From NCBI RefSeq assembly GCF_021209385.1, contig NZ_JAJOIL010000019.1:1-55367 (forward strand): 55,367 nucleotides of DNA, written 5' to 3'. The stretch comes from Seleniivibrio sp. Lineage in GTDB: Bacteria > Chrysiogenota > Deferribacteres > Deferribacterales > Geovibrionaceae. Shown one piece after another: positions 26,973 to 29,038 of the stretch. A program made the translations under genes and the position numbers. Every line of letters begins with the position of its first letter. Position 1 is the first letter of the stretch. Below the pieces are notes generated by a model that saw only the letters and a list, made by a program, of their open reading frames with translations, ran no database searches and had not been told where the DNA came from.

Positions 26973-27006
26973 TGTAATCTCCTTAGTCTTTCATCTTATG
27001 AAAGCC

Positions 27007-27047
27007 AATATAAACACATTGTACGGGAATAACTTGATTGATGTCAA
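27007..27047 (-). promoter_or_regulatory. FNR/CRP-type activated promoter
   Basis: Read on the minus strand: TTGACATCAATCAA (27047-27034) fits the FNR consensus TTGAY-N4-RTCAA, and TATATT (27012-27007) is a -10 box. The dyad centre lies about 41 nt upstream of the implied start point, the class II activator position. The site overlaps the last codons of the neighbouring acyltransferase gene. Confidence 0.65.
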
Positions 27048-29038
27048 AATTTGTCTGAATTTTTTATCGCGGACTGTATTTTTGGTGCCATCATGTTTGC
27101 CACAAACAAAGAACCATGTGTTGACAAGTGGTTGGAGTCAAAATAAAGCGGAGACATTCCGTCGAAAAGCTCACATTCTCCGTTCCTGCAAAGAAACTCC
27201 GAAGGGTCTATGACGGAAAAACGCACCTCTTTTGAAAGAGAAGCAATCATATCGTTGAAATCTTTTGCCCATGCATAGTGGGTGGACGAGCTGAAATCAT
27301 AGTCCAGTTTGCCGACCCTTTCGCCAAACATCTGCTTCATCATAGCATATTTGCCCGCCTCAACAGGCACGTCAAAACCGATGTCAGGCACATCCAGTAT
27401 CACAACCGCATTTATTCCGGCGGTGTTAAGTCTGGCTATTGTCCCCTTAAGCCCCTGATAGAGCAATCCGTCGCTCGCATAGGGGTTGCCTTTGTCCTTG
27501 TCGTCTTTCACTACATAAAGTTTTGTAGTACCCAGATAACGCTTGTTGTTGGCATACATGCCCCATCTCGCCGTCAGAAATACTGTCTTTACGCTGGGTT
27601 CGCTTATAATAACTTCTAGCGCCTTATCTATGTATTTACTGCAATCGAGATACCTTGCGCCGTTCAGAACGTCAGCGCCGTTTGTCGGAGCGCATGTGGA
27701 GCGAGCAAACAACAGACCTGTAGTATCGGTTTTTTTAAGCAGGGCATCCATACCGCTGCTCATGGCAAGAGCATGAGAATCACCTATTAATGCAAAGGTC
27801 GGCTCATTTTTTCCGCCGATACGGCAGAGTTTATCTTTTGTGATATCCTCGTATTCCATATCGAAACACTTTTTCGGGTCAAGCCCGCCCATCTTTGCTG
27901 TACTGGCTTCAATGACGTTTTTCGGAAATCTTGCACTCATGCCGTTGGTATGCTCAACGTATATGGCGGGCAGACACAAAATACCCATACAGGCGGCTGC
28001 ATATGCAAAAAGCTGTTTTTTATTACGCACTCTCATCGTGCGCAAAGGTTTTTCAATGACGTAATAAGAAAATATCGCCAGAGCGAAAACAGCGGGAATA
28101 AGAAATGTGTTTGTCAGGAAAAATGATCTGAACTCCACGGCGGAGATATAGTTTCTGAAAGCGAAAAGCGGCCAGTGCCATATATAAAGAGAATATGATA
28201 AAAGCCCTATCCATACCAGCGGTTTCAGCGAAAGCACCCTGTTAACGGCTGAACCCTCGGCATGAATTATCAGGGCTGTGCCGACACACGGAAGAAGAGC
28301 GGCATATCCCGGAAAACGGGTGTTCTCGTCTATTAAAAATATGCCTGCGGCTATAAGCAATAATCCGGACACACCGGAAATCTCACGTTTAAGCCCTTCT
28401 GCAGAAGGAAAAAAGCCCAACGCAAGCATAGCGCCGAGCATCATCTCCCACGCGCGGAAAGGCAGATTAAAAAACACTGCCGACGGAAACATTTTTATAC
28501 ATAATACGTTCAGCAGAAAAGAGATTATAAAAATTGAAATGATTATTGTTTTAAGGTGTCTGAAACCGCGCTTTGCAAGAAACATAAGCATCAGAGGGAA
28601 AAATATGTAGAACTGTTCCTCAACTCCCAGCGACCATGTATGAAGAAGCGGCTTGCTCTCTGCGGCTGTCTCAAAATAGCCGCTGTCACCCCAGAAAACA
28701 ATATTTGCACAGAAAAATACTGCGGCGGCGGCACTTTTCCCGAATTTTTCAAAATGGGACGGAAGCAGGAAAAAATATGAAAGCAGACCCGTCACGGCTA
28801 TCATGGCGAAAAGTGCAGGAAATATGCGTTTCACACGTCTGACGTAAAAATTAGCAATGGTAAATGTGCCGGAAACAAGTTCTTTATAGATGATTGATGT
28901 GATCAGGTAGCCTGAGATAACGAAGAAGACGTCGACACCGATAAACCCGCCGGAAAAAACGGATATACCCGCATGATATAGAATAACAGGCAAAATGGCT
29001 ATGGATCGCAATCCGTCGATATCTTTTCTGTATTTCAC
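27044..29038 (-). CDS. Acyltransferase 3 / SGNH fusion (OafA-like)
   Basis: 664 residues: an N-terminal acyltransferase-3 membrane domain of about ten helices (start MKYRKDIDGLRSIAILPVILYHAG, with the catalytic-type His; DVFFVISGYLIT near 35-46; HTWSLGVEEQFYIFFP near 130) and a C-terminal periplasmic SGNH-like domain (about 400-660, with IGDSHALAMSSG and DSNHLSTHG). Such proteins O-acetylate surface polysaccharides or lipopolysaccharide, taking acyl-CoA on the cytosolic side. No polysaccharide gene cluster adjacent. The stop overlaps the neighbouring FNR-type promoter. Confidence 0.93.
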   Translation of the reverse strand: MKYRKDIDGLRSIAILPVILYHAGISVFSGGFIGVDVFFVISGYLITSIIYKELVSGTFTIANFYVRRVKRIFPALFAMIAVTGLLSYFFLLPSHFEKFGKSAAAAVFFCANIVFWGDSGYFETAAESKPLLHTWSLGVEEQFYIFFPLMLMFLAKRGFRHLKTIIISIFIISFLLNVLCIKMFPSAVFFNLPFRAWEMMLGAMLALGFFPSAEGLKREISGVSGLLLIAAGIFLIDENTRFPGYAALLPCVGTALIIHAEGSAVNRVLSLKPLVWIGLLSYSLYIWHWPLFAFRNYISAVEFRSFFLTNTFLIPAVFALAIFSYYVIEKPLRTMRVRNKKQLFAYAAACMGILCLPAIYVEHTNGMSARFPKNVIEASTAKMGGLDPKKCFDMEYEDITKDKLCRIGGKNEPTFALIGDSHALAMSSGMDALLKKTDTTGLLFARSTCAPTNGADVLNGARYLDCSKYIDKALEVIISEPSVKTVFLTARWGMYANNKRYLGTTKLYVVKDDKDKGNPYASDGLLYQGLKGTIARLNTAGINAVVILDVPDIGFDVPVEAGKYAMMKQMFGERVGKLDYDFSSSTHYAWAKDFNDMIASLSKEVRFSVIDPSEFLCRNGECELFDGMSPLYFDSNHLSTHGSLFVANMMAPKIQSAIKNSDKF

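Follow-up and report, generated by a model that had tools for sequence, protein, structure and literature searches.

Class II promoters of Escherichia coli FNR carry the regulator's site near −41.5, and FNR itself is recognised by an N-terminal cysteine-cluster motif for its Fe-S centre. HcpR is a further Crp/Fnr protein, one without the FNR cysteines, that controls the hybrid cluster protein gene hcp (PMC1274295). The accessible text of that source gives the HcpR site as TTGACnnnnGTCAA in delta-proteobacteria except Desulfovibrio, and the HcpR2 site as GTAACnnnnGTTAC; it reports Ser or Pro at residue 180 and Glu at residue 181 for HcpR1, and for several species it lists hcp as the sole member of the HcpR2 regulon (PMC1274295). 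In the HcpR1 regulon of delta-proteobacteria, TTGACnnnnGTCAA precedes hcp and frdX (PMC1274295, PMC545781). As far as the available portions of other reports go, the Porphyromonas gingivalis HcpR is a haem-binding NO sensor that activates hcp (PMC12750200), HcpR proteins may act as repressors too (PMC545781, PMC5701242), and in Clostridioides difficile no site was found other than that in front of frdX-hcp (PMC12915319).

Here we consider a stretch of 55,367 nucleotides from Seleniivibrio sp. (contig NZ_JAJOIL010000019.1, hereafter the window), in which a dyad of the Crp/Fnr family precedes an operon on the minus strand. The locus resembles the HcpR1 regulon in the type of dyad, in hcp as a target, in a regulator that adjoins hcp in relatives, and in the Glu at residue 181 of that regulator; it differs in that its own candidate regulator has Ala at residue 180, that one half of the window site reads ATCAA, and that the operon is not mentioned as a target in the available text of PMC1274295 and PMC545781. 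Judged by motif, the HcpR2 regulon would include this module in other phyla, with a spacing from dyad to −10 box close to that seen here, but its regulators have Arg-Pro as recognition residues and another half-site, and the window site is not of the HcpR2 type. E. coli FNR class II promoters are alike in half-site sequence and in the position near −41.5, yet no protein with the FNR cysteine cluster was found among the seven Crp/Fnr-like proteins translated here, and the targets are those of an NO regulator.

Layout of the operon and its predicted proteins

A sequence-only reading of the window had proposed an FNR-type class II promoter for a GTPase/ATPase/YgbA operon. The genes so named are present, but the first gene of the operon encodes a DUF1858/solute-binding protein and not the GTPase (Table 1). 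All four genes lie on one strand with close or overlapping ends, which suggests that they form a single transcript. The description of a full FNR/CRP-family half-site pair on the minus strand agrees with the sequence, and the placement of this dyad at about −41.5 is a fair one: taking TATATT as the −10 box places the dyad centre (27040.5) between about −40.5 and −41.5, a spacing that points to a class II position. The overlap with the 3′ end of the acyltransferase gene also stands, as the stop codon of that gene (27046–27044) falls inside the dyad. An alternative −10 box, TACAAT (27023–27018), was rejected; just 10 nt separate it from the dyad, and it is not conserved from genus to genus.

Table 1. 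Positions in the window of the promoter elements, the operon genes and the gene upstream.
Feature	Position	Strand	Remark
Crp/Fnr-family dyad TTGACATCAATCAA	27034..27047	−	predicted HcpR-type activator site
−10 box TATATT	27007..27012	−	21 nt 3′ of dyad
Shine-Dalgarno AGGAG of first gene	26979..26983	−	
ATG of first gene	26972	−	
DUF1858 + SBP_bac_6 protein, first gene, 400 aa	25770..26972	−	binding-protein fold
GTPase, UreG/HypB/CobW type, 231 aa	25072..25767	−	invariant CPDH + two CxxC
ABC-type ATPase, 333 aa	24087..25088	−	
YgbA-like protein (YgbA_NO family), 98 aa	23794..24090	−	over NCBIfam NF007714 cut-off
Acyltransferase-SGNH gene, upstream	27044..29038	−	outside module; stop codon within dyad

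The predicted model of the first protein (pLDDT 85.7) was compared with known structures using Foldseek. The pyridoxal-phosphate-binding protein 6wce was the top match, followed by many ferric-binding proteins and, lower in the list, by binders of sugar phosphates and polyamines; entries for FbpA/FutA were matched with an E-value of about 1e-13 and a TM of about 0.5 by query length. A PDB profile search returned one DUF1858 domain together with weak binding-protein matches. Because the structural matches span binders of pyridoxal phosphate, ferric iron, sugar phosphates and polyamines, the predicted fold does not tell the ligand of this protein. Its likeness to the ferric-binding proteins FbpA/FutA is one of predicted fold, which is common also to binders of other ligands. 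It is unlike them in its N-terminal DUF1858 domain, in an invariant Cys95 that opens the helix following the first strand, and in having, by eye, no signal-peptide-like start.

The GTPase is closest to the UreG/HypB nickel-insertion GTPases, with which it shares its G domain, and its CPDH motif, placed between Walker A and Walker B, is invariant in 10 of 10 sequences. HMMER aligned the CP of this motif to the CP of the UreG CPH motif, which is the nickel site of UreG, in both 4hi0 and 5xkt. In contrast to UreG and HypB, however, the protein has two extra CxxC pairs and other operon partners, and it scored below both NCBIfam cut-offs (50.5 for HypB, cut-off 121.2; 28.9 for UreG, cut-off 204.2). 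The top rows of the PDB search were RecA concatemers matched at the P-loop only, with UreG and HypB next.

Conservation of the dyad

The bare dyad pattern is not above chance. The site in the window differs from the FNR box TTGATNNNNATCAA by one mismatch, and matches to that box with at most one mismatch numbered 2 in the window versus 4.0 in shuffles; across the whole genome of the organism, TTGAYNNNNRTCAA occurred at 12 sites versus 9 for the reversed control. Some of these 12 sites lie inside reading frames, and others precede feoA-like, hemerythrin-like or dehydrogenase-like genes. One stretch of the same genome, TTGATACAGGTCAA (L039, 1501–1514, on contig C15), lies 5′ of feoA-like and feoB-like genes and could be a further Crp/Fnr target. 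A separate observation on this genome concerns a SusD-like reading frame on contig C13 (L038, around 280973). SusD is typical of Bacteroidota, and the frame may reflect horizontal transfer or a misplaced contig.

We also defined a composite pattern, in which the dyad is followed after 19–23 nt by TATATT. This composite was found twice in the organism's genome (2.9 Mb; control 0); the 12 genomes of its family contain 19 matches (control 0), and all 39 related genomes together contain 38 (control 10). The 38 matches comprised 21 before the module, 2 before the gene for a small cysteine-rich protein described below (G000, G003), 3 before hcp (G015, G024, G025), and 12 elsewhere; 2 of these last precede cytochrome-like genes, and all 12 were counted against the explanation given here. 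Another of the 12 precedes a gene that resembles one for a PAS/hemerythrin-type protein. At L063, L067 and L068 (G013, G010 and G006), the composite promoter stands before small c-type-cytochrome-like genes and a long sensor-like gene, which are possible regulon members.

Orthologs of the first gene (L001–L024) were identified in 24 of the 39 genomes, the organism's own included; they belong to eight genera and have 39–100% identity. Scanning the 150 nt upstream of each, we recovered a perfect TTGAYNNNNRTCAA in 24/24, with the site starting 62–95 nt ahead of the start codon. Dinucleotide shuffles of the same 150 nt gave a mean of 0.03 and a maximum of 2 of 24; these values must be read with caution, as the 24 orthologs, like the 80 loci treated below, include close and some near-identical relatives, such that counts are not independent, and shuffles ignore kinship. 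None of the six paralogs scanned (L025–L030) had a perfect site. In 22 of the 24 orthologs the dyad is followed by a TA-rich hexamer at a distance of 21 or 22 nt, and the other two have TATATT at 19 nt and TATTGT at 21 nt. The acyltransferase gene lies upstream in L002, L004 and L090 and is absent from 13 other loci compared. The sequence-only reading had named lack of conservation in near relatives as grounds for giving up its proposal, and the dyad was instead retained in every ortholog. By cross-genome comparison, it is a real and strongly conserved site.

A second composite site, unlinked to the operon

The second composite site of the organism's genome precedes a gene for a 79-aa protein with six conserved cysteines. 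Invariant positions in 22 of 22 sequences are H2, C5, C37, C40, C53, C56, C65 and H66, and a fold search with this small protein gave no match at an E-value of 0.001. Among the 39 genomes, the protein is found in exactly the 24 that have the module and in 0 of the 15 others. Throughout the 12 genomes of the organism's family, its gene is either distant from the operon or located on a different contig, and each of these unlinked genes (12/12) is preceded by a perfect site. This site lies within 150 nt in ten genomes; in the other two, which have longer leaders, the distances are 187 and 298 nt. Small genes that lie within the operon had a perfect site within 150 nt in 0 of 12 cases, one of them having a one-mismatch match. 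Since unlinked copies have a site of their own and in-operon copies do not, the site follows the transcription unit. Within one genus (g3), the distance from site to small-protein start is 112, 187 and 298 nt at L255, L257 and L258, and the promoter is retained.

Relatives of the small protein are encoded in 56 of 80 loci, these being the best 80 of at least 554 GTPase relatives. In the pattern scan that yielded these 56 finds, the small-gene start ranged from about the end of the ATPase gene to 510 nt behind it.

hcp and the candidate regulator

The same site was found in front of hcp. From 39 matches to PF03063 in related genomes, 30 were fetched, of which four lacked the Hcp N-terminus; the 26 hcp promoters scanned all carried the site with at most one mismatch, and 16 carried it perfectly. 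Shuffles of these promoters gave a mean of 1.1 (max 5) for at most one mismatch and of 0.03 (max 2) for a perfect site. The hcp site of the organism itself has one mismatch. A PF03063 protein is encoded in 24/24 genomes with the module among the 39 relatives and in 9/15 without it. More widely, hcp scored over the curated cut-off in 38 of 42 module genomes searched, and none was found in the remaining 4. In the order to which Ancylomarina belongs (Bacteroidales), 6 of 198 genomes had the module and all 6 had hcp, compared with 89/198 for hcp overall. This co-occurrence is support rather than proof. Together, the operon and hcp look like an HcpR-type (NO) regulon.

Ten stretches of the organism's genome matched the Crp-type HTH family, six of them over the Pfam cut-off, and seven Crp/Fnr-like proteins were translated (six over the cut-off and one below). 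Four odd Crp-like regulators, L046, L047, L048 and L049 (contigs C23, C10, C9 and C30), each lie near a frame that by eye resembles a flavoprotein reductase, and may represent regulator–reductase pairs.

The best-fitting candidate regulator is L043, a protein of 216 aa encoded on the minus strand of contig C25 at about 82176–82826. It is 38–57% identical to regulators encoded divergently from hcp in 13 relatives, the lowest of which (L120) sits on a long, unsure branch, and 48–50% identical to three regulators encoded at the end of this same operon. In the organism's own genome the L043 gene is not beside hcp, and it is convergent with the unlinked small gene. L043 has Ala-Glu at residues 180/181, and the orthologs of several relatives have Pro-Glu; a second Crp/Fnr-like protein, L044, has Pro180 and Glu181.

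The earlier suggestion that the operon is tied to oxygen or NO control thus divides. Because the same site precedes hcp and the candidate's orthologs adjoin hcp, an HcpR-type regulator and NO or nitrite are indicated; the oxygen half finds no such footing, the seven Crp/Fnr-like proteins translated not being FNR-like and the other conserved target of the site being hcp. The likely regulator would therefore be an HcpR-type NO sensor and not FNR. We consider it highly probable that the dyad is a class II site, at about −41, for an HcpR-type Crp/Fnr activator that is NO-responsive and probably haem-based, and from sequence comparison we infer the identity of the binder, NO as the signal, and activation as the outcome. 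A DUF1858 gene appears with a value of −29.2 in a Bradyrhizobium nnrR-mutant table, a single row with unchecked column heads in the accessible part of that report (PMC6710368); this would fit an NO link for the DUF1858 domain.

The module in other phyla

A scan of named genomes with a GTPase profile gave at least 554 confirmed relatives among at least 591 stretches, and the best 80 loci were fetched. These include Deferribacteraceae, Spirochaetes, Acidobacteria, Marinifilaceae and other Bacteroidota, Firmicutes, Fusobacteria, Cloacimonadota, Desulfobulbus and others. A Denitrovibrio sp. genome (L161) also carries the module. Wherever the contig is long enough, these 80 loci have the genes in the order binding protein, GTPase, ATPase. 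Within this set YgbA was seen only in Deferribacterota and on one Desulfuromonadales contig (L236), and hcp lies within 19 of the 80 loci (12 of the 44 that have more than 4 kb on both sides).

We then classified the sites in the 73 loci for which upstream DNA was available. Twelve had an HcpR1-type site (four of these are Deferribacterota already in the ortholog set), 28 had an HcpR2-type site with at most one mismatch, 2 had a CRP-type site, and 31 had none of the three. Among 321 control ORFs the corresponding counts were 2, 19 and 6, such that the number of CRP-type loci is not above control. Of the 29 HcpR2-type sites (28 loci), 27 are followed at 21 or 22 nt by a −10-like box or by TAnnTTTG, the Bacteroidota −10 box, the −10 pattern being a loose one; L202 and L233 have an HcpR2-type site without that spacing.

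Eighteen loci hold a Crp/Fnr gene in which residues 180/181 could be read. Arg-Pro occurred in 13, all with a GTAAC-type site and ten of them from one family; Pro-Glu occurred in 2, both with TTGAC; Arg-Glu occurred in 2, both with a one-mismatch CRP-type site; and Arg-Ser occurred in 1 (L176), which has no site. The pairing of residues with site type agrees with the published rule (PMC1274295) in 17 of the 18 loci. An Rrf2-family gene lies upstream in seven of the 31 loci with no site, loci that were picked since the upstream protein looked like Rrf2; it stands directly before the first gene in L162, L181 and L189, and about 420–560 nt away in L175, L184, L191 and L209. Rrf2-family proteins may form a third class of regulators that act on the module genes.

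Alternative readings of the module and its site

Fold, motif and genomic context lead us to the hypothesis that the operon encodes a UreG/HypB-like module for the assembly or repair of a metal centre. One may postulate a scenario in which the site is genuine and the module, instead of serving a metal centre, consists of a binding protein and an ATPase of importer type that have been turned to a different task, as a binding-protein fold next to an ABC ATPase would suggest. A UreG/HypB-like GTPase and a six-cysteine protein are conserved alongside these two, however, and the GTPase is 74–80% identical in the members of the best 80 loci that fall outside Deferribacterota; we regard an importer-like system as unlikely.

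With regard to the regulator, the true binder could be a DNR/NnrR-like protein, or L044, rather than the HcpR ortholog. DNR uses TTGATnnnnATCAA according to the accessible text of PMC1274295 and is among the PDB relatives of L043, and the Pro-Glu of L044 is among the residue pairs reported for HcpR1. Against L044, matches at 44% identity or more were found in 5 of 39 genomes (the organism's own included) while the site is present in 24, and the regulators beside hcp and beside the operon are of the L043 type; L044 was rejected as the regulator on account of the few genomes that hold close relatives. We judge a binder other than the HcpR ortholog to be improbable.

The promoter had originally been read as FNR-type; a true FNR, with an oxygen-labile Fe-S cluster, would switch the operon on when oxygen is lacking. 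Half-sites close to the FNR box and the class II position are both in keeping with such control. Nevertheless, with the FNR cysteine-cluster motif as the criterion, none of the seven Crp/Fnr-like proteins has an N-terminal cluster of this kind, and three of them scored 60, 30 and 41 bits against an NCBIfam Fnr cut-off of 228. The site's other conserved target, moreover, is hcp. As the genome is 96.6% complete, an FNR may have been missed, but we hold FNR control to be very improbable. Finally, a chance dyad kept owing to its overlap with coding sequence, here the acyltransferase stop codon, has a negligible probability and is refuted by other genera, which lack that upstream gene and retain the site at the same spacing.

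Proposed role of the operon

The HcpR-type reading of the site leads to a possible mechanism. The operon would be the local form of a widespread module that consists of a DUF1858/binding-protein-fold protein, a UreG/HypB-like GTPase, a soluble ABC-type ATPase and a six-cysteine protein; in the local form YgbA has been added and the small gene is unlinked. In the presence of NO or nitrite, the HcpR-type regulator, for which L043 is the candidate, would bind the dyad and recruit RNA polymerase to TATATT, and the operon would then be produced together with Hcp. The module may bind a metal, with iron as a first guess, and could spend GTP and ATP on building or repairing a metal centre that NO has attacked, for which the Hcp hybrid cluster is the first suspect.

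Pfam and NCBIfam gave no name for the module as a whole, and a literature search, conducted mostly from listings, did not find it described, nor did it return anything joining DUF1858 with hcp or the hybrid cluster protein with CobW. Matches for HcpR, hybrid cluster protein and GTPase together were judged from the listing to be unrelated. We tentatively propose, as a possibility that should be treated with some reserve, that the operon encodes the core of a so far undescribed machine by which anaerobes, on induction by NO, assemble or repair metal centres. With the six-cysteine protein as a carrier, this machine would load or mend the Hcp hybrid cluster or other Fe-S centres damaged by NO; it would have come separately under HcpR1, HcpR2 and perhaps Rrf2-type control in different phyla, with YgbA as an accessory in Deferribacterota.

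What began as a guess from a motif has become a testable regulon. A module present across many anaerobe phyla hereby gains a likely signal (NO), a likely regulator and a likely partner (Hcp), and the results may bear on how anaerobes build and mend the Hcp hybrid cluster and on the roles of YgbA and DUF1858 in NO stress.
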